A stretch of 64,000 nt of DNA from Paracyclopina nana. Lineage: Eukaryota; Arthropoda; Copepoda; Cyclopoida; Cyclopettidae. The position numbers and the translations under genes are program-made. Positions 5,250-54,562 of the stretch are shown piece by piece. The DNA lies in NCBI GenBank assembly GCA_019096065.1, contig JAGUCH010000002.1, positions 7,638,501 to 7,702,500 on the forward strand, in the 5' to 3' direction. Numbering within the stretch: the first letter of the stretch is position 1; each line of letters opens with the position of its first letter. The notes beneath the pieces were generated by a model. It was not told the origin of the DNA. It ran no database searches and worked only from the letters and a program-made list of their open reading frames with translations.

Positions 5250-6642
5250 ATGAGCTTGATGGTGTGGTTCATATTGGCTATTTCTGTTTTCTGTAGTTGC
5301 AGTCAGGCAATGGAAAATCCTTACACTCTTGGTTCTTATCCTGTTAAGGAACACACTTTTAATAGCATTTTCAACAATGCGTTGGATCACAACGTAAAAG
5401 TGATTGCACCAGACAAACCAGGAACTTACCCAGTGATTTATTTCATCACGGGCGTCGCAGGTGCTTACTTTCAAAACATTTGCCAACAAATCAATGATTT
5501 TATATGTCAAAATTCGATCTTTCAGGCCTCATACCACCAGTCTTTTACTCAATTGCGCTCACCCAAATTGCAAGCCATGGTTTCATAGTTATATCCCCAT
5601 TTTCCTACATTGGCTCTCCCACAGCACAGTATAATGCTCAATGGCTCATAGAAATTGACATATGGGCCCAAAAAAGTCTTGGAAGCTACCTAGAAAAAGA
5701 AGGATTTCAGCTTTCCAGCATTGATTTTGCGAGCACATTCATGGTTGGCCATTCTTCTGGCAACCATGTGATAATCAACTACTTGAAAAGTGGATGCTAC
5801 AATGTGAAAGGAACAGTGTTATTGTCTCCAGTTGACGGAGTGGATCCATTTGGTTTCATAGATGATTACTGCATTACGCCAGGCGAAAAGCTTTCATTTG
5901 AGACACCTACACTCGTACTTTCAGTGGGCCTTGACAATGTTCCAGGTTTGCTCGGATTTATTTTTATCTGATTATCTAACTACCTATATTTTATAAACAA
6001 TAAGTATATTTAGTAAAGTTTAACTTGATGAAATACTGAATATTCGCACAGGATCTCATTGATGAGAACTTTATTAATGCCCGCATTTATTTAATCATGC
6101 AAAACACTTTACCTTTAGGTATAGAAAGATTAAAAATAATTTTTAGGCGTATCATCAGTTGGTGACCTCTTTCCACCATGTGCGCCAGACAATCTTAGCA
6201 ACCTTCGCTTTTGGAATGCCTTAAATGGTCCAGCTTGGCTCAATAACGCCACACTTTTCGGTCACACAGATATTTTGGACCCTGGTATTGCATCAAATGT
6301 TGCTGGGGTAATTTTAAAAAGCCAATTATTTCAAAAACTATGTATACCTACAGATACACAATTGAATGAGATTTCTTTAGTTTTTGCACGTGTGTGCCCA
6401 TAATGACAATGGGATTGACGATGTGCTCATTAGCTTTACTGCTGGCCAAATTGTGTCGCTATTCTCAGGTTAGTTGATCCGGACAGGAACAAAGTGCTAT
6501 TAGTAATTATTACTTTACAGGTCTACAAGGTGATTGCGAGTCATTGAAATTTCTAGAGGACACAACATTGATGCCAACAACCGTAGAAGTTCGATCTCAA
6601 GGAGAAGTCAAGTGCCCCATGGGATATTGCTCACTTATTTAA
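5250..6642 (+). CDS. Secreted chlorophyllase-like alpha/beta hydrolase, copy 1
   Basis: Serine hydrolase resembling plant chlorophyllase, which cleaves the phytol ester of chlorophyll (family knowledge; the substrate here is inferred). Five exons: 5250-5460, 5526-5945, 6147-6307, 6381-6468, 6521-6642. The signal peptide ends in FCSCSQA. Then come the oxyanion-side segment YPVIYFITGVAG, ASHGFIVISPFSYIG, the nucleophile elbow GHSSGN, the acid region LSPVDGVDPFG (plant enzymes have a similar DPVDG), and the His segment LFGHTDILD (plant GHMDMLD-like). The Ser-Asp-His triad therefore looks complete. A second gene with the same exon pattern lies at 30.8-32.2 kb on the other strand. An upstream in-frame ATG at 5211 would add 13 residues; copy 2 has the same ambiguity. 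Confidence 0.82.
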
Positions 6643-30823: not shown

Positions 30824-32225
30824 TTAATAAATAGTTTGCTTGCAATAACCAACAGGACATTTTTCTTCGCCCTGAGATCTTACTTCAACGTCTGTTAGCA
30901 TTAAAGATGGATCTTCTAGGTAATTCAGGAATTCACAGTTTCCAGTCAATCCTGAAAGAGAAGGACGGTAATTGATTGCCGGTACTGTATCCATTGTGCA
31001 CAGACATTTGTGATTACCTTTAAAAAGCGATACTATTTGGCCAGCACTAAAACTGATGTTCACATCATCAATGCCATCTTCATTGTTTGCACATAGGTTC
31101 ATAAGCTAATGAGAAAAGTTTTGTGACTTGCATGGTTATTATCATAGCTGAAATTCCAAATTACCTCCCCAAGCTGAGAAATGGCACCAGGATCCAAGAT
31201 GTCAGTGTGACCAAAGAGTGTTGCATTGTTTAGCCATGCTCGGCCATTTAAAGCGTCCCAGAAGCGAAGATTGCTCAAGTTGTCAGGCGCACATGGTGGA
31301 ATGAAGCCACCCGCTGATATGCCTATGCGTAAGCAACAAATATTGAAGATGAATTGATGAACTACAGCATATAAGAATGTCCATGTTCCCATAAGCAAAT
31401 ATTGACTTTGTCTGAGCAATAAATGACATTTTTAGCGTACCCTGCTTTGTGACATCATCGTACTCAAAATATTTCTGCCGTCTCCCAATTAGTACTGCAC
31501 ATACCTGGTAACCCGTCTAGGCCAACGGAAACTATGAGAGTTGGAGTCTCAAATGGAAGCTTTTCTCCAGGGGTTATGCAGTAATCATCTATGAAGCCAA
31601 ACGGATCCACTCCATCCACAGGGGACAACAATACAGTTCCTTTCACATTGAAGCATCCACTCTTCAAGTAGTTGATGATCACATGATTGCCAGAAGAATG
31701 ACCAACCATAAATGTATTTTGAAAATCAATATCAGATAGCGCAAATCCCTCGTTGTGCAATAGCTCCAACAGATTTGCATGCGCCCAATTGTCAATGTCA
31801 ATCAGCCATTGAGGATCATATTGAGAGGTGGGCAGACCAATGTAGGAAAATGGCGACAAAACAATAAAACCATGGCTGGCAACTTGGGTGAGCATGAGAG
31901 TGTACAAAGATGGCGGAATCAGGCCTGACAAAATATATGTCTATTGAAAGAGTGCTCACAGTATGATAAGTAATAATTATCCCTTACCTGCTAAACCAGT
32001 AAGGAAATATATGACTGGATAAGTTCCTGGCTCATCAGGAGCAACAACTTTAAGGTTGTGGTCCAGCTCCGAGTTGAAAATGCTATTGAATGTGTGCTTC
32101 TTCACAGAGTGAGGACCTAAAGAGTAAGGGTAGTCCAAGGTTTGACTTAGACAGCCAAAGAAGCTCATGAACAAAACTAGGAGCTTCGTTGAGATCATCT
32201 TGATGACCACTGAATGCGTGGACAA
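30824..32225 (-). CDS. Secreted chlorophyllase-like alpha/beta hydrolase, copy 2
   Basis: Paralogue of the gene at 5250-6642, with the same five-exon structure: 31988-32225 (or start at 32198), 31505-31924, 31165-31322, 31018-31105, 30824-30951. Signal peptide around MSFFGCLSQT. Conserved segments: HTFNSIFNSELDHNLKVVAP, YPVIYFLTGLAG, ASHGFIVLSPFSYIG, GHSSGNHVIINYLKSGC, LSPVDGVDPFGFIDDYC, IPPCAPDNLSNLRFWDAL, LFGHTDILDPG, and a short last exon ending GEEKCPVGYCKQ. The Ser-Asp-His triad is complete. The paired cysteines near the C-terminus are shared by both copies. The two genes lie in opposite orientation about 25 kb apart. Confidence 0.82.
30826..30831 (+). terminator. AATAAA signal of the innexin gene overlapping the opposite stop codon
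   Basis: AATAAA on the + strand lies 29 bases after the innexin stop and overlaps the stop codon of the convergent chlorophyllase-like gene (30824-30826). The two mRNAs must overlap at their 3' ends. Confidence 0.6.
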
Positions 32226-35201: not shown

Positions 35202-38200
35202 TTAGTCAACAAGAAAATTCACTTCCAAAGGAATGAACTCGTCATCGTCGCACTCACCATCAATCTCCGTCATTTGGAAGCTCAAGCCGTTGTAGGAATA
35301 CAGCCCAGGAGCAGACACAGCAACATGAAACTTGATGCTTTTCATGCATTCCCCTTCAAGGGGTATGACAGCTTTTGTGCACCCCAAAAACCTAGCAAAG
35401 TCTTGACTACCACTGAAGAAGTCTTTGCTGCTGTCAGTTTTATATCGGAAGGCTGACCTCGTCGGCAGAAAGTTCTCCACAGTAAGGCTAAATTGGACCA
35501 GGCAGACGGGATCTTGGTCAAAATTATGCCTAATATTGCAATTGTTCACCACAATTCCGACACGGCAAGGCTTTTTGGTAGTTGGTAACGTGGGAGCGTC
35601 GATAGACTCAACACTGCTCATGTGATCCACTTGATCAGAGGCCGGGTTTTCATCTGGATTTATAACAGCATAGGCAATGCCCGACTTGTCGTTGGAGGCT
35701 CTCCAAGATAGGACGATTAAATCTGACTTTAGCTTCGCCGGCTCCTTGAGAGTTCCATATGCAAAAGCATTTTTCAAAAAGTCAATCTGCGGGGCAACAT
35801 CAACATGTTCAGCTTCAGAGTTCTTGCTTACTTTGAGGCTTGAAAAATGCAGTCCTCCCTGGCTCTTGCCTTCTCCTAATGGCGCTTGAGCAGTTCTCAA
35901 GCCTAAAACCAAAGACTCGCCTCTGGTGACAGGAGTGTTTTCATTGCCAGACAGGAATCCCGACAATACCCTCGAGGAACAGCTGATCATACTCACTTGC
36001 CAGAGGTAAACCTGTTCAACTTGCTGGCTTTTGGCTTCATTGCTATGATTGGTCACACTGAGGAGCAAGGCTTGACTTTTGTCATCATCATATCTGCAAG
36101 CATTGACCAAGCTTGCAGTGATGGCAACAGAAGGCAAGACTTTAACAGTCAAGTCCATTTTCAGAAGCCTCTTCAGTGGTTTCTTCTCCATGCTGAAAGG
36201 AATGTTGTAAGCAAAAAAGACACTGACATCTCTCGATCCTGGTTGAGTGGGGGCACATATCCAAAGCTTTTGCTTATGCACTTGTCCTGGATGCAAGATG
36301 TTCTCGTGACCTATATTTATCGGAAGTATGTCGAGCTGCAAGTCGTCATCTTTGATCAGAGGAAAATCAAACAGAGTTGCCTTTCGTTTCTCGGCCCCAA
36401 GGGAAAACATTCCTGGTGAATGATGAACCAAATGCACGTGTGTCATGGGAGCATTGCCAACATTTTCAAGCACCATTTCAATACTTTGAACTTGTCCTTG
36501 ATGCATAACATCTGGTATCTTAAGACTCGTCACCTTTAACCTAGGCTGATGGGGTACAATTTTGCAGCTCAACCGGTTGTCTTTCATGTACAGAGGTGTT
36601 TTGCTGACTTTTTGTTCCTTGGTGGCGTTCAATCTTGGGCCCTGTACCTGCAGTTGAAAATTTGACTTTCCAAGACTAGTTTTTTATTAAATGAATCATA
36701 ATCATTCACATTGACTTGGCAAAGGACCTAACCCAAACTTCATACAACACCCAAGAATCATGTATTTTCTGAAAGCGTGTGTCCCTAGGGTTCATTTGGT
36801 GATAAAATAAAAATCCTGGCCTATCGCTTCCAATAACATATAAATAAAAACGTTTGGCGCAAAAACGGCTCATTTTTTGGGGATAGTAGCTCTCTAGGGA
36901 TAGTTAGCAACAATGACCCCCACTAAAATTCATAAGTAAAACTTAAGTTATTTTATACTAAAATCTTAGGATGAACAGAAACGGAGATGTAGCCATGCAG
37001 GGGGGTCTCGTAAGTGAGTTCTTGACGCAAGTTTTGCATGCCAAAATCACCAAATCTGTTTGTCTTAGCCTAGGTGGCGCTAGTAGTTCTTACTACATAG
37101 CGCGTGAGCTCAAGTGATGTGTCAGTCATGGAAGCAAGCGGGCTAATCTCACGCGTCTTCAAAAGAGCTCCTAGATAAGTTCTGTATTTTTTAAAAAAGT
37201 ATGCAATTTGGGCACTTTTTGATAATTTAAGGCAGGTTATGGAAATTTTTGGAAGTGAAATCCACAGAATTATATTGAAATTTTGTCTTGAAGCCTACCA
37301 CAGCTCAGTCAGACTGTGTGCTATAGTACAGCAGCGACAAGAACTCACCTTATTACTATAGATCATCTTGTAGCCATGCTAAAAGGTGATTACTACCAAC
37401 TTCAGAGGGGGTTGTAGCCATGCTAAAAGGCGATTACTACCAACTTCAGAGGGGGTCATTGCTATTACTATTAGCTGAGAGGGCTGAGCAGTACATAAGT
37501 TCCAACCATATAATTTCCATGATTTTTTTGTTGCTCTTTGATTCAGAGGAGGATAATGAACATAATCCATCTACAGGTGGATAATGATCATTATACCTTA
37601 CTAGATCTTTGCGCCATCTATTTCATACAACTGAAACAGAACAAAAACGCAAGGACCTAGAAAGAATCGAACACAGGGCAACTGATTACCATGCCGACGC
37701 TCTACCTCTGAGCTAACCAGTTGCTGTATAAATTAAGGGTTCGTTGATGGTTAAATCATAAAGCCAGTACTGCAATACACGGCGGGACTAACCGGTGCAG
37801 GCTGGCTGGGTCAAAAAGCATGGCAAATGCAGCAAATAGATGGCCGGACAGGCCGGCGCAACGCCAAGATGCAGCAGAAGCATGTTGCAGTCTAGACCGC
37901 TGGGTCAACTTTGATGAGCTCATGCAGCAACAAAGCGGACTGCAAAATCTAAGGTATTTTTTGCAAAAAATTGAGCCAAAATCTTTCCTTAATTCAGTTT
38001 TAGCCAATGCTTGAAATGTTGGGGTTAGCTATTAGTAATAGGATTATACACCTCTAGGCTGTCGGAGAGAATCCTATATTAATAATCGCAAAAAAATAGT
38101 AAACTGTAAGGGCTAGACGCTTTTGAAAATTTTATGCTAATGGAAGCCATAGGCCAGGATTTTTAAATTACTACCAAATGAACCCTAGGAACATAAGCTT

Positions 38201-41212: not shown

Positions 41213-42156
41213 GATTTCTCTACCGGTAACCGAAAATCCCTGGTTAGGTTTCAATTTCCAAATAGTTCTCAGTTTATTTCTCTACCAAGACGAAATGTAA
41301 ACAAACACATTGGGAAAAAATTAACCAGGGGAATTTTTTTCCCGGGAAAAAAAATCACCAGGCGAATTTTTTTCCCACAGAATTCATAGTCTTGAGTAGG
41401 CACAATGTGCGGGAGTTGTTGCCGTGTGCGGGAGACGCTGCCGTGTACGGGAGATGCTGCCGGGTGCGGGAGACGCTGCCGGGTGCGGGAGACGCTGCCG
41501 GGTGCGGGAGACGCTGCCGGGTGCGGGAGATGCTGCTGGGTGCGGGAGCCTCAAATTGCCGTCTTGGTCTTGAGCAGCCTCAATTTGCAGTTAAAGACGC
41601 AGCTGGGTGCGGGAGACAATGCCAGGTGAGGGAGACGCTGCCGGGTGCGGGAGACGCTGCTGGGTGGAGAGACGCTGCCGGGTGTGGAGACGCTGCCGGG
41701 TGCGAGAGACGCTGCCATGTGGGGGAAACGCTGCCGGGTGGGGGAGACGCTGCCAGGTGGGGGAGCCTCAATTTGCAGTTAAAGACGCTGCCGGGTGCGG
41801 GAGATGCTGCCGGGTGTGGAGACGCTGCTGGGTGCGGGAGATTGGGAGATGCTGCCGGGTGTGGAGACGCTGCTGGGTGCGAGAGACGGTGCCAGGTTGG
41901 GGAGACGCTGCTGGGTGCAGGGGACGCTGCCGGGTGCGGGAGCCTCAAATTGCCGTCTTGGTCTTGAGCAGCCTCAATTTGCAGTTAAAGTTTTGTAACA
42001 CTGCACTTGCAGCGTAATCAGTAATGGCGTCAATTTGTTGTCAGTGACTCAGCTGAGATCCGCTACTGGGATCAAAGTATGATGGATCGAAATAGTAGGT
42101 CGAGCTTGTCTTGGAATTTCAACAAACCTGGGATTTTCGGTTACTGTTAGAGAAAA
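41213..42156. repeat. Inverted-repeat element carrying a GC-rich 19-base minisatellite
   Basis: A left repeat at about 41213-41262 (CTCTACCGGTAACCGAAAAT, then CCCTGGTTAGG) and its reverse complement at about 42112-42156 flank a GC-rich tandem array at about 41405-41960. The unit is about 19 bases (GACGCTGCCGGGTGCGGGA with variants). A 48-base AT-richer block beginning CCTCAAATTGCCGTCTTGG occurs twice (about 41543 and 41940), with a partial copy at 41765. Long open frames across the array come from its base composition. Confidence 0.75.
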
Positions 42157-44232: not shown

Positions 44233-47200
44233 TCACAAGCCTCTTGGATGACTAGCCATGAAACGATATGCTACTTCCGCTGCTGCAGTTTTACTTTTTG
44301 ATAATGGATAGTCGTGGCCGTAGTCTCCGAAGCATCTTACAATAGCTTTTCCTCCATGGCAAAGCTTTTCAAAGCATTTGAATCCTGCCTGGCCATCATA
44401 GGGAGTATGGTATGGATGTTCCAACTCCTCACAGCCCATTTTGTCAGCCCATGATTTTAGTAGGCTGGCTTTATCGTCATAATAGTACCCATCATAGGAA
44501 AGTAGGCTATTTTCCGGGCCGTAGCCGAAGCTGTGCTCATAATCATAGGGTATAGTGTCATCGGCAATACCGTGCATATCTATGATGGAAAAAGCTACAT
44601 TAGCTTCTGGAGGTGGCTGTCCAAATCCAATCAGAGAGGATGCTGCAACAGGGTTGATAGATGCAAAGCCTGAAAATGTAATGGTTGATTTACAGTTGAT
44701 ATCCCATCTCATAATTTAACTTTATTAGCATTAGCATCGTGAAGAGCAAGAAATAGCCAATCACGACTAGAATCAAAAGCTGCGATCATGCACTCATATC
44801 CGAGCAAGTCTGCAGTAAACACGTAGCCTTGATAAATGAGAGGTTGCGCGATTAAAGAGAAAAAAGCTGAGTAAACATATGTTGGATTTTCCGTCGAATT
44901 CCCTGCCGCCGGTGCATACAAAACGAAAACAAGCTGATGTGGCGGCCTTTAGTAATGGACAAGCTCAAAACAAAACTGGCCTTAGCGGCTATTTCTGCGA
45001 CTGTCCTGCTCATCTTGGGTTGGAATGGTAATTAACTATACGAAAAAGGATACATTTTTTGCAAAGTTTTCTTGAGTGCGCATAAAATTTGACATTTAAT
45101 TCTTTTTTCATTCAAGGCCCTCAATGTGCAATGGCTCATGGCCATTCTCACGACGATGGACATGGCCATTCTCATGGTGAAAATCCAGCCTTCAAGTACT
45201 CGAGGCAAGCCAACGCGGCCGTCAAAGAGGATGAAATCATGGAAGAAGATATTGTAGATCTTCCTCCATCTCATGGACCCAACTTGAAAAATGCCCATGG
45301 TCATAGTCACGGTGGTCATGGCCATAGTCACGGTGGTCATGGTCACAGTCATGGTGGTCACGGCCACAGTCACGGGCATGGGCATGCTCAAAGAGAGATG
45401 ACCCCAGAGGAGAGGGAACAGGCTCGGCTTAGACTGCATAAAAATTGGGATGACGATGATGAAGAAGAGTTCATGAGTGACAACATTTGGCTGAAGGCAA
45501 TTTTGGCCACTGTTTTGATCAGCCTTGCGCCCTTTGTCATTCTCTTCCTCTTCCCCTTGGACAACAGCAAAGAAAAAGAGTGGCTGCTCAAGATTTGCTT
45601 GAGCTTTGCCTGTGGAGGCCTACTGGGAGATGCTTTCCTTCATTTGATTCCTCATGCAATGATGGCCTCGGAAGGCCATGGCCATAGCCATAGCCATGGA
45701 CATGGTCATAGCCATGGAGGAGAGGGTAATAATTAAAAAGCTATGATCGCATCCTAAGATTAATTTTTGGGCACCGTAGGTGAACATGGCCCTCATGACT
45801 TGAGTGTTGGACTTGGAGTCTTGTCAGGTATAGTGGCCTTCTTGTGCGTGGAAAAATTTGTGAGAATTTACAATGGAGGTGGTCACTCACACAGCCATGG
45901 AGAGCCATCACCAAAGCCAGCTAAGAAGGATTCGGCAGAGAGTGCCAAAACTGACGAAAAGAAAAAGAAATCTCCTGAATCTGCTAAAAAGGTGAAAGCT
46001 ATAGTATTCAAACAAGTGCTTGAGAAAACATTCTACAAGTCTTTCATAATTTTATGATAGAGTCTTTTTAAAGAGCCGGATACATTTATTACAGAAATCT
46101 GACGATGATGGCCTGAAAGATTCTAAGGAAACGTCCACTGATAAACCAAAAGAAGCTGACCATGATCACGGCGAGGATATAAAAGTGACAGGATTCTTGA
46201 ATTTAGCTGCTGACGCTTTCCACAATTTTACTGACGGGATGGCCATAGGGACTAGCTTTTTGGCCGGCAACTCAATTGGAGTGATGACTACGTTTATGAT
46301 TTTGTTTCACGAAATCCCTCACGAAATAGGGGACTATGCCATCCTTATTCAATCTGGAGTGAAACCGGCCAAGGCAAAAATGCTGCAACTTTTGACAGCT
46401 CTAGCTGCCATCATGGGCTGCGTTGTGGCTCTTTTTGCGCAAGAAGCCGGAGAGGCTGCTGCTGCTGGATTTATCCTACCTTTCACTTCTGGAGGATTCA
46501 TCTACATAGCAACTGTCTCAGTCATTCCAGAGCTGTTAGAGGGCACAAATTTCAAGCAGTCTGTCATGGAAGTTGGAGCTCTGCTTTTTGGAGTTTTCAT
46601 AATGGTTGTTGTTGCTCAATATGAGTAGTGATCAGTGTTCAACTTTATATACCATGATAAATCATAAGCTTATCTTTCATTTTTGCAACTAAAGTAATAA
46701 CTAACTAGCTTCCTAACTTGTTTTATTCTATCTGACTTTTACCGCGTTATTCGTCTGCAAAATTAGGAACATATCCGCATTTAGTGCTTAAGTTTTCAAT
46801 TGCCACGAAGCCTATTTTATCGTAAACTTAATGTGTGCAGCCACTCAGTATGTATAATCAAGATGTTAAATTTTGGTGACAAGCACAGAAATACATGAAT
46901 GATGCATCTTTTAGAGGGCTTATAAGCAATAGGTGTTGATTCACCGACTTGAAATGCTAAAAAACAATAGCCAAATTATACATTTTCTACAAATTATACA
47001 TTTTCTACAAGCTATAAAAAGTTTCTTCCCTGTAGCTGTCCAATAATAAGAATTAAAAGGTCTTAAGTCAAGGTAATCACCAATACCTATTAGATCGAAG
47101 CTTTCATCATTCACTCATTGCCGGATTTCCAAAGTGATCTGCTTTCACATTCTTAAGTGTGATTTATACCTGTGCGAAAGCAAAACCAGGTATGATGGTT

Positions 47201-50200
47201 GAAGCAACGTATTAGTCACGCAGCAAAAAACAATGCAGATTAAGTATCTCAAAAATATTCTATCGTGCCAAGATGGAGCAGCCAAGATTTCAGCTCTGTC
47301 ATGGTCTCCCAATAACTTGAAGCTAGCCGTTTGCACAGCAGACAGAGTCATCATACTTTTTGATGAAACTGGAGAGAAGCGGGACAAGTTTTCAACGAAG
47401 CCCGCTGATGCAAAATACGGAAAAAGAAGCTACACAGTCAAAGGTCTTGAGTTCTCTCCTGATAGCTCCAAATTAGCAGTGGGCCAAACAGACAACATTG
47501 TCTTCGTCTACAAAGTGGGCGAGGATTGGGGTGAAAAGAAAGTGATTTGCAACAAGTTCGTTCAAACATCAGCAGTGACATGTCTCACTTGGCCTATGCA
47601 GGTAGTTAGCTTAGAGTAGCTATCACTAGGGCATCCCTAATAATTTCTAATTCATCATGATAGGGTCCAATCATAGTTGGGTTGGCAGATGGAAAGGTCA
47701 GAGCAGCCCACACAAAGACAAACAAGGCCACCACATTATATAATACCGACTCCTATGTTGTGTCTCTTGCATCCAACAGTGAAGGCACAGGGTTCTTATC
47801 TGGGCATGCAGATGGGTCAATTGTTAGGTGGTATGTGGCTGATGATACGACAGCAAAGCCCCAAGGAAAAGTTGTGGTGCACAGCATTCCTCCATATGCT
47901 TTGGCTTGGGCTTCAAACCACTTGGCAGTGGCTGGATCCGACAAAAAAGTGGTCTTTTACACACCTGAGGGAACAGTGTCTCAACAATTTGACTATTTCA
48001 GAGATCCCACAGAAAAAGAGTTTACCACCATGTGCTGCAGCCCTAGTGGACAGGCCCTTTGTGTTGGCAGCTATGACAGAATCAGAGTTTATAGTTGGAG
48101 TGCAAGGAAAAACCTGTGGGAGGAGAACGGAGCCAAGGAAATCAAGTACTTGTACAGCATTACAGCTTTGGGGTGGAAAAGAGATGGATCCAGAGTTGCT
48201 GCTGGATCCTTGTGTGGAGGAGTGGAAGTCTTTGAATCTGTCCTTAGAAGAGCTGTTTGGAAAAATAAGTTTGAGATGACTTTTGTGGGACCCAGCCAAG
48301 TTCTTGTGAAGCCTCTAGTGAAAGGAGCCAGGGGCGTCATCTTGAAGTCAGTGTATGGATACGAAATTACTGATGTCAAGATCATGGGTGGGGAAAACTA
48401 CCTGGTGGCAAGAACTCCAGAGACAATGCTTTTAGGAGATTTACAGAGGAATCTGCTCTCAGAGATTCAATGGGGATCTACCATGGGTGGCAATGAGAAA
48501 TTTTACTTTGAAAATGCCAACGTCTGCATGATTTTCAACGCTGGAGAGCTGAGCTTGGTAAGTAAATATTAAAAGGGCAAAGTGACGCAGGGTGCTTTTT
48601 TTAGTCTTTCCAGAAAGGATCATAGAAACATAGAAGCTTGCAATCAGAATTAAAAATAGGCTTGATTTTTCATTTGTAAATTTGATTCGAGGGGACTTGA
48701 TTAAATATTTCCGATTTTGATTAAGCGAATGCATCTCAATCTATGTAGTGCAGACTTTAAAAATTCGAGCGAACCTGTAATAGTATTTAATTTAGGAAGG
48801 GCGAAATATATATTTATATCCAGCTGGGGAACAAAAAGTAGGGCCATAAAAGAGCTGAGATAGGATTTCATAGCAATGGAACGAGCTCTAACTCGGCTCA
48901 GTAACTCACGATATGGAAGAATGGAAATATAATTTGATTATATTATTTCAAGACTTAGCTATCAAAAATCCCAATCGCCAGAAAATAATACTTTTGAAAG
49001 AGCTATAATATATATTTGTATGAAGCTGGGGAACATAAAGTAGGGCCGTTAAAGAGCTGAGTGAGGATTTCAAAAAGGAATAAACAAGTTATTCTCGATT
49101 GGACTTATATTATCTCGGTTGCGGTATTTGTTCACGGTTCTCTCAATCAATTTGCAGCGTATGCGCGTCTTACAGTCCAATTCAGTTTTTGAACACTTCC
49201 GTTCAATTAGAAGCGTCTACTGAATTATCTTGCAATTTTCAGGTAGAGTATGGCAAAAATGAGGTTCTAGGCTCTGTGAGGACTGAATTCATGAATCCTC
49301 ATCTTATATCGGTCAGGATAAACGAAAGAAAAGTCAAAGGCATTGAAGACACCAAGAGGTTGGCCTACTTGTTGGACTTGAAGACGATTTCCTTAGAAGA
49401 TCTAGGCTTTGGCTACAGCCTTGGACAAGTTACCCACGACTCTAAAATTGATTGGGTAGAGCTTAATGAAACGGGAAGAAAGCTTCTATTTAGGGACAAA
49501 AGAAGTCGTCTGAATTTGGTTGATGTGGAGACCCTCACAAAGACGTCCATCATGAACTACTGCACCTTTGTGCAATGGGTTCCAGGCTCTGACGTTGTTG
49601 TGGCTCAAAGCAGGGACAACATGGGAGTCTGGTATAATATTGATGCACCTGAGAGAGTTACTTTGGTGGCCATTAAAGGAGATATTATTGACATTGCCAG
49701 GTACTTTGCAGTGTTTTTAGAATTGTTCATGGGTGCATTTTATAAAGCGGTGGCAAAGATTTTTTATTGCTACCAATCTTTAAAACTTAATTTGAAGTTT
49801 CTGTAATTACGCTAAAAGTATTTTTAAAAAAACACTTTTTTCTGAAGGTATGGTGATTTATCTAAAATTGCATACGTTTATTTCATCAAAAATTAGCAGT
49901 AGAGGGCATAATGTTAATGTTCTCTCACAGTTAGTTTGTGAGCGGTTACAAAGTGAAGTTTTTAGTATGAATTTATTGATTACTTTCAGAGAAGACGGAA
50001 AAACTGAAGTTATAGTCCAAGAGGGCCAACACCAACTTTCTTATGAGTTGGATGAAGGATTGATTGAGTTTGGAACTGCTATAGAGGATGGAGATTTCAA
50101 CCGCGCCATTGCTTACTTGGAGTCACTAGAGGCCACTCCTGAAACAGAGGCAATGTGGAGAACTCTAGCGAGGCTTTCTTTGGAAAGTAAGCAACTGCAC

Positions 50201-53200
50201 GTGGCCGAAAGAAGCTATGCAGCTCTTGGTGATGTCAGCAAGGCCAAATATCTGAGGGAAACCTTGAATATTGCTGACAATGCCATTGCCTTGTATGGCG
50301 GAGACGGGTTTGACTCCCCAGAGGTCTGGGCAAGGCTCTACATCTTGGAAAAGCAGTTCAAGGCAGCGGAAGGAATTTACTTGGAGCAAAATCAACCAGA
50401 TGAGGCCATTAGGATGTATCAGAGGCTGCACATGTGGGATGAAGCTCTGGCCTTAGCTGAAGCGAAAGGCCATCCCAACTTAGAAGAGCTAAGAGCTTCC
50501 CATGATAAGTGGCTTCTAGAAACTGGCCAAGAGGAGAAAGCTGGTGCAATAAGAGAAGCTGAAGGTGATTACAAAGAAGCACTCAATCTATTCCTGAAGG
50601 CTGGTATGGCTACAAGAGCCTCAAGACTGGTTCAAAGCCGAGAAGAGCTCCTCGACAATCCTGACGTTGTGGGCAGAGTCACTTCTGCCCTATTAAATGG
50701 GGAATTTTATGAGCAGGCAGGGGAGCTCTATGAAAAGGTCGACCAAGAGGACCAAGCCTTGGAGTGCTACAGAAAGGCCAATTCTTATGCCCGAGCTGTT
50801 GAGCTAGCCAGAAGAACGTTTCCGAGTGAGGTAGTGACCTTGGAAGAGGAATGGGGAGACTACTTGGCAGACAGCAAGCAAATGGATGCAGCAATCAATC
50901 ACTATATTGAAGCTGGTAGAACCCTCAAAGCTTTGGAGGCCGCTATCAGTGCAAAGCAATGGAAGAAAGCAGTGCAAATCATTCAGGTATACAAAAAGGA
51001 AGATTTGATACAGTTATTCTAGAGTGCACTTACTTTCAACTGTTTTTAGGTCATAGATGACCATAATGGTGAACTGAGCAAGTACTACTATCAGCTGGGC
51101 CAGCACTTTTTGTCAGTGAGAGAGTACAAAATGGCAGAAAAGTTCTACTTGGAAGGCAACATGGCCAAACAAGCCATTGAAATGTACAACAATGCTGGCA
51201 TGTGGGAAGAAGCTCACACTTTGGCCAAGAGATACATGGACTCATCCGAGGTTAGCAATATGTATATTGCACAAGCCCACAAACTGGAGCAGCAAGGGAA
51301 GCTGAAGGAGGCTGAGAAGCTATACATCAGTGTTCAAGAGTCTGATTTGGCCATCTCCATGTATAAAAAGCAGAGACATTATGACCAGATGATGAGACTA
51401 GTCAAGCAGTACCATCCAGATTTAGTGCAGTCCACTCACATTCACTTGGCCCAAGAACTTGAGCAGGAAGGCAATCACAGAGCTGCGGAAAAGCACTTCA
51501 TCGATGCTGGTGACTGGAAATCAGCTGTTCACATGTATCGGTAGGTTAAAGCTACAATAGCATTACAGCAAGTGTTTTTTGGTACAGCTGCTGGATGAAA
51601 TTGGTCTGATTTCAGGGGCGTTGACCATTGGGAGGATGCATACAGGGTAGCTCAAGCTCAAGGTGGCCCTAACGCAGCCAAGCAAGTGGCATTTTTATGG
51701 GCCAAGACCCTCGGTGGGGAGTCGGCTGTGAAACTCCTGACCAAATTTGGCATTCTTGAGCAAGGCATAGATTATGCATGTGAAAGCTATCAGTTTGATT
51801 TTGCCTTTGAACTTGCCAAGTTGGCAGCCAAGGAGAAAACTGAGGACATTCATTGCAAGTATGCCATGGCACTGGAAGACGAGGGCAAGTTCACGGAAGC
51901 AGAGGTGCAATTTATCAAGGCGAAAAAGCCTAAGGAAGCAGTTCTCATGTATGTCCACAATCAAGATTGGGAGTCAGCTCAGCGAGTCGCTGAAGAGCAC
52001 GACCAGGCAAGTGTAGCAGATGTTCTCGTTGGCCAGGCTAAGGTTGCCTTTGAGACTGGAAACTTTACAAAGTTTGAAAGCCTCTTGCTGCGAGCACAAA
52101 GGCCAGAGCTGGCAGTGAAGCAGTACAAGGATACAGGCATGTGGCCCGAGGCTTTAAGAGTGTGCAAGGAGTACCTACCCCACAAGCTGAAAGCCTTGCA
52201 GGACGAGTATGACAAAGAGTCCATAGCCGACTCATCTAAAGATGTGGATGCTCTGCTGGCACAGGCCAGGAACTGGGAAGAAACTGGAGAATACGAAAGA
52301 GCGGTAGACTGCTACCTAAAAGTTGACAAAAGCAACACCAGCAACACTGCTACCATTGCAACTGCTTGGACCAAGGCCGCTGAATTGGCAATCAAGTTCC
52401 TGGATTCTGACAAGGCCATTGACGTGGCTCAAACAGCTGGACCAATGTTAGTTGAGATTGGCAGGCACAATGCAGCTGCCCAGCTCTACATGGGAGTAGA
52501 AATGATTAAGGAAGCTGTCGATGCCTTCATTTCTGCTCAGGAGTGGGGCAAGGCCAAAAAAGTGGCCAAAGAGCTAGAGCCTAGGTTAGAGCCCTACGTG
52601 GATCAGAGGTACAAGGATTTCCTCAAGAATGAAGGCAAGGCGGATCAACTGGCCAGTGTGGACTTGATTTCGGCCCTTGACATGTATGTAGAACAAGGCA
52701 ATTGGGACAGGGCTCTGGACACAGCAGCCACTCATGGGCAAGATGTGCTTCACAAGTATGTTGCAATTTGTGCTACCAAAGCAATCAAGGATGGAAAGCC
52801 CCTCGATGCTCTCAATTTGTACAAGAAATACGGAGCGCCCGCTTTTGCGCAAAATTTCAATATTTACAAGAGGATAGCAGTTGACCTTCTTTCATTGCCA
52901 TTCGACGACGACCACCTAGGAGGAGCTAATTATTTTACATGGGCCTCCTTCAGAGATATCATGCTAGACCTGACGGAAAATATGCACCAAGAGTATGAGG
53001 GAAGTCAGGCGCACAAGGACTTCAAGATGTTGCTTTTGATTTCGCATTACATGGCCCTCAGGGCTGCATGCACGCCGCAAAAGGCCCTCAAGGAAATATC
53101 TACCAAAATATCCGTTGCCTTGCTGAGGCACACCGATGTCATCCCAGCAGACAAGGCTTTTTACGAGGCGGGTATTGCCGCCCGGGAGGTTGGTTGGCTA

Positions 53201-54562
53201 AACATGGCATTCGTTTTCCTCAACAGGTACACAACTTTTTTTGAACTTATTCCAACAAGCCCAGCTTTAATCCTCGCTTCATAGATACCTAGATTTGTAT
53301 GAGGCCATTGAGGAGGGCAATACCGACAGCTTGGACAACACCGACTTTCTCGACACTGACATACCCTTAGAAATCCCCCTACCTGAATATCCCCACTTGC
53401 CCAAAGACAAGCACGAGGCTATAAAAGAGTGGGTGTTGGCAGTATCCATGGACCAGAAAGTGGAGCAGATACTGCCAATGGACGAAAGGATGACTTACGA
53501 GGCGTCACTTTCAACTGCTAACACCGGTACAACCTACCCGGCATGTGTCATCACTGGCTATCCCGTGCTAGGAAGCAAGATTGAATTTGCTCGGGGCATG
53601 GTGGCAAACAAGGAGGATTGGAACAAGTTTGTGATGACAGCTAAAATGGTTTCAGATACAGAGATACAGGATGTTCTCAAGTTTATCAGCAATTGGTGTG
53701 GACTTGGGGGTGCAGCCCCTAGCTTTTCTTTTAAATAACTTAATAAAATTCGTCTTAGCCACATGTAAAAGATAATTCGTTCTGTAGCCGCAAGTAGCGT
53801 GATTTGGCTGGTTTTAATCAACCAGCCTATCTTTTAAGCTGTAAACTACTCGCAAAAAATAAATTTAAGCACAACTTACCAAGCCCGTCTGTTGCCATAG
53901 AAGCCACATAGTAGGCAAACATGCCGCCATTGGAAATGCCCGACAAATGGATCTGGTCCAAGTCTATGCACCATTCCTCAGAGATTTTGTCAATCAAAAA
54001 TCCAATGAATCCTATATCATCATGACAACTGGTCCAATCACACGAGCTCAACGCGCTGCAAAGTGGGCAAGATCCATAGCATTCAATGGGGCCCCATTGC
54101 TCCCTATTTGTATCACAAATGGCTCCCTTCGGTCCTTCGGTAGAAGAGCAATTCCAAGAGCCCATTTGATTGGGGCTGTCAGCCATGCCATTGGGCCAGA
54201 GCAGCATGAAATTTTGGGCTAGAGCAACCTTTTTCCAGGGCGAAGTGTGCACTTGGCCGTCGGAGCTGCCAGTCCATCCATGGAGATCCAACACCAATGG
54301 AATTGGCTCCACATCGGCATCTGTTTTTGCAAGCCATCTTATAAATGGATCATTAATTATCTTCACTATACTCACACCAGGGTACTTGAAGGATATAATC
54401 TCTTTCCACTGGTCCTTGTTGTTTATCCTGATAAGTGACAAAAAATTCCCCATGATGACCAGGAGATGGCCAACTTGGAATTGGTTTTTCACAGCCATTC
54501 GATGGTTTTGAGGCCGCTGTAATGCTGATCATGGCCAACAGATGTAATAAGTTGGACATCAT
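44233..54562 (-). CDS. PHB-depolymerase-like secreted esterase, split by a 9.2 kb intron (or two fragments)
   Basis: Alpha/beta hydrolase of the LpqC / esterase-PHB family; relatives cut polyhydroxybutyrate, feruloyl or similar esters. Exons 1 and 2 (54376-54562, 53880-54320) give the signal peptide [58 protein letters not shown] and the nucleophile [13 protein letters not shown], stopping at a phase-1 donor (GTAAGT). Exon 3 (44233-44669) starts at a phase-1 acceptor and gives exactly the missing C-terminal half: [26 protein letters not shown] (acid), YGHDYP (His) and [11 protein letters not shown]. Together they make one complete triad with no overlap. The intervening 9.2 kb holds ZIP7 and IFT172 on the other strand. 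The alternative is that a rearrangement broke the gene. Confidence 0.62.
44955..46628 (+). CDS. SLC39A7: Zinc transporter ZIP7 (SLC39A7 / Catsup)
   Basis: ER/Golgi zinc exporter of the LIV-1 ZIP subfamily. Exons: 44955-45027, 45117-45725, 45780-45991, 46095-46628. A signal-type N-terminus ([17 protein letters not shown]) leads into a long lumenal His-rich region with repeated HGHSHGG units, then TM segments ([34 protein letters not shown]), a cytosolic loop with another His cluster and a Lys-rich stretch, and the transport core [10 protein letters not shown] and [13 protein letters not shown] that bind zinc in TM4 and TM5. It ends [13 protein letters not shown]. In insects this gene is Catsup, which also restrains tyrosine hydroxylase. 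Normal length (about 475 residues). It lies inside the putative long esterase intron. Confidence 0.92.
46629..47232. other. Intergenic gap
   Basis: AT-rich spacer between ZIP7 and IFT172. The only feature seen is a 17-base tandem pair (AATTATACATTTTCTAC twice, about 46974-47008). Confidence 0.45.
47233..53738 (+). CDS. IFT172: Intraflagellar transport protein IFT172
   Basis: Peripheral IFT-B subunit needed for cilium assembly and tip turnaround; in arthropods it acts in ciliated sensory neurons. Seven exons: 47233-47601, 47664-48557, 49243-49700, 49990-50986, 51050-51540, 51616-53226, 53285-53738. The N-terminal half is two WD40 propellers ([99 protein letters not shown]). The C-terminal half is TPR-like helical repeats ([69 protein letters not shown]), ending [11 protein letters not shown] ... 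FSFK. About 1750 residues, colinear with vertebrate IFT172. Confidence 0.96.
48795..49075. repeat. Direct duplication in IFT172 intron 2
   Basis: Two copies about 195 bases apart share AGCTGGGGAACA, AAAGTAGGGCC, AAAGAGCTGAG and AGGATTTCA blocks (about 48810-48875 and 49010-49075). The copies have diverged. This duplication is part of why this intron (685 bases) is long for the window. Confidence 0.6.

Follow-up and report, generated by a model that had tools for sequence, protein, structure and literature searches.

Is an esterase gene whose exons are separated by 9.2 kb of DNA, itself carrying two genes on the opposite strand, a single gene with a long intron or a gene that has been broken apart? 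This question is raised by a locus of the copepod Paracyclopina nana (GCA_019096065.1, contig JAGUCH010000002.1), which was analyzed within a stretch of 64,000 nucleotides (positions 7,638,501 to 7,702,500 of the forward strand; referred to as the window, in which all positions below are counted). We read the locus, with a probability of roughly 0.8, as a nested-gene arrangement in which a small esterase gene is the host and its second intron holds, on the opposite strand, a ZIP7-like zinc transporter gene and IFT172. The parts of the host gene, in the order in which they would be transcribed, are as follows.

Exon structure of the esterase gene

54376..54562, minus strand: esterase exon 1, with the ATG at 54562, an in-frame join and, by eye, a signal-peptide-like N terminus
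54321..54375, minus strand: esterase intron 1, 55 bases, GTGAGT..CAG
53880..54320, minus strand: esterase exon 2, with the nucleophile motif GISNGG
44670..53879, minus strand: esterase intron 2, 9,210 bases, phase 1, GTAAGT..TTTTCAG, with two plus-strand genes inside
44233..44669, minus strand: esterase exon 3, with the putative acid GIADD, the putative His YGHDYP and the stop codon

An earlier note on this DNA had described two non-overlapping esterase halves on the minus strand with a phase-1 junction between 53880 and 44669, which was borne out here, as exons 1, 2 and 3 join in frame to encode 354 residues with no stop or frameshift in the exons. Motifs for a candidate feruloyl-esterase-like catalytic set are present in the order nucleophile (GISNGG, starting at residue 190), acid (putative, GIADD, 243) and His (putative, GDYGHDYP, 324), and similarity to known esterases reaches the acid region only; the catalytic roles of the acid and His motifs are presumably those of the alpha/beta-hydrolase family. 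Exon 2 extends 14 residues beyond GISNGG, and the predicted exon 2–exon 3 splice junction falls in codon 210, where ..MATDGLG is followed by FASINPVA... When coding scores were compared across all six frames, the true frame was the best for exon 2 (0.14 bits per codon) and exon 3 (0.24 bits per codon). Exon 1 scored −0.29 and its true frame was not the best of its six, which makes it the part of the esterase model placed with the least certainty. On the host strand, exon 3 is followed by the poly(A)-like words ATTAAA (44214) and AATAAA (44155). The small esterase encoded by this gene would probably be secreted.

The esterase missed the curated cut-offs of the family models NF050058 (72.5 versus 150 bits) and TIGR01840 (27 versus 107.85 bits) and that of Pfam Abhydrolase_2 (15.9 versus 23), and PF10503 found no match when the whole genome was scanned. 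Because of these low scores and the lack of a PF10503 match in the genome, the protein is placed as a distant relative of the PHB depolymerases and feruloyl esterases, with which it has in common the GxSxGG nucleophile region and similarity on to the acid region. GTDB genome contigs were also scanned by a method that is limited to close relatives; none of its 12 pattern matches was confirmed as a relative of the esterase.

Splice signals of the predicted 9.2-kb intron

Splice sites were scored with a matrix trained on 10 introns of this locus, which are themselves predictions and include esterase intron 1. The donor of intron 2 scored 8.04 bits, the top of 20 local GT sites and a score reached or exceeded by 0.72% of the 6,231 GT sites of the window, but one training donor is identical to it in nine letters, so this score is partly circular. 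The acceptor scored 5.12 bits and ranked second of 15 locally, with 5.9% of the 8,103 AG sites of the window scoring at least as high. A rival acceptor, with which exon 3 would start at 44579, is also in phase and outscores the chosen one, but would cost the esterase 30 residues.

Two further signals bear on a rival reading, in which the ZIP7-IFT172 block was recently inserted or inverted and so broke an esterase gene that would now be decaying, with an exon 2 transcript ending near 53.8 kb and exon 3 either silent or read alone. An ATTAAA lies on the host strand at 53818, 61 bases into intron 2, and could end such a short transcript; and the exon 3 frame stays open upstream as far as an in-frame ATG (44712, 43 bases ahead of the acceptor), from which exon 3 could in principle be read on its own. 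The only other intron of the host is 55 bases long, which likewise suits a broken gene. However, 10 poly(A)-like words, six of them AATAAA, are found on the host strand within intron 2 besides those past exon 3, and such words are therefore poor discriminators here. The exon frames are also intact and the splice signals in phase, which argues against a decaying gene, although intact splice signals would be compatible with a block that entered an existing intron very recently.

Similarity across the exon 2–exon 3 junction

In the 92-Mb assembly, a search that scores its best candidates only (here, three of three) gave a single occurrence of each esterase half and no intact second copy. When the joined protein was searched against PDB, feruloyl esterase 9j07 matched with 41.2 bits over a stretch (residues 162–252) that crosses codon 210 without a gap there. 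This score was higher than that of the N half alone (34.7 bits) or of the protein joined at the rival acceptor 44579 (34.6 bits), and the C half alone matched no esterase in the same PDB sequence search. A similar pattern was seen for 8jh8 (29.9 bits joined, 22.4 N half, 20.1 rival join), which aligns with a 2-residue gap located a few positions ahead of the junction, and for 3wyd, which matched the joined protein with 19.6 bits and was absent for the N-half and rival-join queries. Conversely, the match to 8daj ends before the junction and scored lower with the joined protein than with the N half (15.3 versus 19.3 bits). These four chains (9j07, 8jh8 and 3wyd crossing the junction, and 8daj) were listed together with six spidroins at E 0.4–0.6, making 10 chains in all. 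The gain from exon 3 in the PDB matches, about 6–8 bits, is modest.

Outside PDB, a PHB-depolymerase esterase on a Novosphingobium plasmid, the sole record from a tblastn search against plasmids, matches residues 53–252 unbroken across the junction (26.6% identity, E 6e-9). This match helps at the junction, but the Novosphingobium protein appears too distant to speak on the origin of the gene. The family models gain little or nothing from exon 3, with NF050058 giving 72.5 bits for the joined protein, 69.3 when the rival acceptor is used and 61.1 with exon 2 by itself, and TIGR01840 giving 27.0 bits for the joined protein and 28.8 for exon 2 alone. Overall, the in-frame join and the similarity spanning the junction suggest, with modest strength, that the exons flanking intron 2 encode one protein. 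The reading of the earlier note, one gene split by an intron, is the best supported.

Open frames in both halves would also suit halves that are transcribed apart and then trans-spliced, or that act as two polypeptides, and cis-splicing of intron 2 is itself a prediction. Nevertheless, ordinary cis-splicing is enough to join halves that lie on the same strand, in order and at a distance of 9.2 kb, and each half taken as a separate polypeptide would, by motif, be without part of the catalytic set. We consider either variant extremely improbable.

The ZIP7-like and IFT172 genes

Two genes were modeled between the esterase exons, on the plus strand:

44955..46628, plus strand: ZIP7-like zinc transporter gene (nested gene 1), with 4 exons, 3 predicted introns and 475 residues
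47233..53738, plus strand: IFT172 (nested gene 2), with 7 exons, 6 predicted introns and 1,757 residues; AATAAA at 53742

The last exon of the ZIP7-like gene matches the Pfam Zip family (PF02535) and has no close second copy in the genome, where other places reach at most 43% identity. Introns 2 and 3 of this gene were picked partly by eye, by reading the protein, neither being the leading or only choice under a simple score. Since two of its three introns were chosen in this way, its exon edges are less sure. The only poly(A) signal between the ZIP7-like gene and the start of IFT172 is an ATTAAA at 47052. IFT172 was aligned to the solved IFT172 structure (PDB 8bd7_S) over residues 1–1723, that is, nearly end to end, and its 537-residue exon had no match in the genome outside this gene. 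Within IFT172 intron 2, two 66-base repeat copies that are 88% alike (48805–48870 and 49007–49072, plus strand) were observed; a genome search with the first copy returned at least 16 matches including itself, indicating a small dispersed repeat family.

The coding parts of both genes, which translate without interruption, lie wholly within esterase intron 2 (44670–53879) on the strand opposite to the host. The ZIP7 start is 285 bases away from the esterase acceptor, and the IFT172 stop is 141 bases away from the donor. The intron of 9.2 kb holding ZIP7 and IFT172 that had been described from this DNA was thus recovered, at 9,210 bases and with both plus-strand genes inside it. The introns predicted in both inner genes (six in IFT172 and three in ZIP7) argue against retroposition, as retrocopies would not carry them.

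In the nested-gene arrangement favored here, an esterase pre-mRNA of about 10.3 kb would be transcribed from the minus strand and its 9,210-base intron 2 removed by the ordinary spliceosome, and two unrelated genes, the ZIP7-like gene and IFT172, would be expressed from their own promoters. Since each of the two inner genes itself contains introns, they most likely came to lie there through a DNA-level rearrangement rather than through retroposition. Such a rearrangement may have inserted the block into a pre-existing phase-1 intron, or may have separated the esterase exons around the block.

Block edges and assembly

No repeats beyond chance were shared by the two edges of the block: the longest direct match was 7 bases and the longest inverted match 9 bases, and inverted matches of at least 9 bases arose in 40 of 300 mononucleotide shuffles. 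Each of the two edge stretches has a single match in the genome. Edge repeats no more than chance, and the lack of a second copy of the inner exons and edges tested, speak against a recent insertion or inversion having disrupted the gene, although a block that had simply moved would leave no second copy in any case. When weighed with the intact frames and in-phase splice signals, we regard a broken and decaying esterase as unlikely.

A further explanation is that the ZIP7-IFT172 block was misplaced inside the esterase gene during assembly. The window contains no Ns and sits inside a 17.5-Mb contig, and the single matches of both edge stretches likewise argue against an error. On the 17.77-Mb contig C1, arrays of TTAGG, the repeat typical of arthropods, are found no more than about 13 and 19 kb from the two ends, which points to a chromosome-scale assembly; a few TTAGG words were also found on this contig near 13.05 Mb. 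On these grounds an assembly error is very unlikely.

Intron lengths in the window and a local survey

The earlier note had taken introns of 50–75 bases to be typical here. Among the other introns placed in the window (n = 11, from a tally that covers four genes rather than every gene), the median was 75 bases and six of the 11 were no longer than this, in keeping with that claim, but lengths ranged from 54 to 1,648 bases, beyond what it allowed. The longest lies in TRAPPC8. The 9.2-kb intron is therefore long for this region, yet introns here are not confined to 50–75 bases.

In a crude survey by eye of Pfam-scanned frames from 164 kb around the locus, no other domain was seen to be divided by a gene on the opposite strand. 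A coding score had left 74 frames, 44 from the flanks and 30 from the window. Of these, 36 from the flanks (six of which were cut at 10-kb piece edges) and 12 from the window were scanned with Pfam; with a further 12 that were not among the 30, the scan covered 24 window frames in all. This survey gives no rate of nesting and does not mean that nesting is rare here.

Comparison with nested genes in other animals

The locus was compared with nested genes described elsewhere (PMC8527503, PMC10282587, PMC3933685, PMC3786989 and PMC8467205). In the ctenophore Hormiphora californensis, 2,357 nested intronic genes were reported in 1,654 hosts, some of which hold more than one nested gene, with four in a single host in one figure legend (PMC8527503). 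That set is backed by Iso-Seq, whereas the present locus is known from genomic sequence alone. In a compact glass-sponge genome of 80 Mb, 12.4% of genes were nested, compared with 5–10% stated for others and next to none in several annotations; annotation programs report almost no nested genes when nesting is switched off (PMC10282587). Values of 4.3–8.7% were given for seven vertebrates, with 74–78% of the simple pairs in human and mouse on opposite strands (PMC8467205), and older figures are about 6% for Drosophila, 2.1% for C. elegans and 0.5% for human (PMC3786989). Depending on the animal and the annotation, the fraction of nested genes in these sources spans 0.5–2% to about 12%. In these sources, nested genes are regular in animals, and a 1,648-base intron is present in TRAPPC8 nearby; the expectation that a 9.2-kb intron with two opposite-strand genes would be extraordinary could not be upheld.

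The locus shares with the opposite-strand pairs of mammals and Drosophila that its inner genes lie antisense within one intron (PMC8467205, PMC3786989). In the usual pairs (PMC8467205), inner genes are typically short and intronless and hosts are long with many large introns. Here this asymmetry is reversed, as the host is small, the inner genes are multi-exon and IFT172 is long. A literature search on IFT172/SLC39A7 nesting, judged by title, found no report of it, which does not prove absence.

As it stands, the locus is a commonplace case of gene nesting, of use mainly as a warning for gene prediction, since a predictor with nesting switched off would call the esterase halves separate or broken genes. 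Owing to the reversed asymmetry, it would become more interesting only if relatives showed that the block arrived recently. That a small host was recently split by a DNA block with two multi-exon housekeeping genes, in a genome with many very short introns, and that its mRNA is still made by splicing out 9.2 kb of antisense genes, is unlikely. If true, close relatives would reveal a new long intron at its birth, and the comparison would probe how a genome accustomed to short introns handles a long one.

Other features of the window

Several minor features were observed elsewhere in the window. The 1,648-base TRAPPC8 intron contains a 44-base tandem duplication (37368–37456, 97% alike) and, near 37.7 kb, a tRNA-like stretch recognized by eye that ARAGORN does not call; run with the bacterial code, ARAGORN reported no tRNA in the window. 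Adjoining the TRAPPC8-like 5′ end is a GC-rich minisatellite (41407–41942) with a 19-base unit in about 27 copies and 70% matches. No Rfam family matched the window at its gathering score. As to the animal itself, a let-7 hit, typical of bilaterians, fell just short of its cut-off (52.9 versus 53.5 bits); together with an innexin from the Pfam scan and the TTAGG arrays of contig C1, it suggests an arthropod, and it speaks against a ctenophore. Two chlorophyllase-like (PF07224) pieces, at 5498–5971 on the plus strand and 31464–31940 on the minus strand, lie about 26 kb apart and are very similar by eye.
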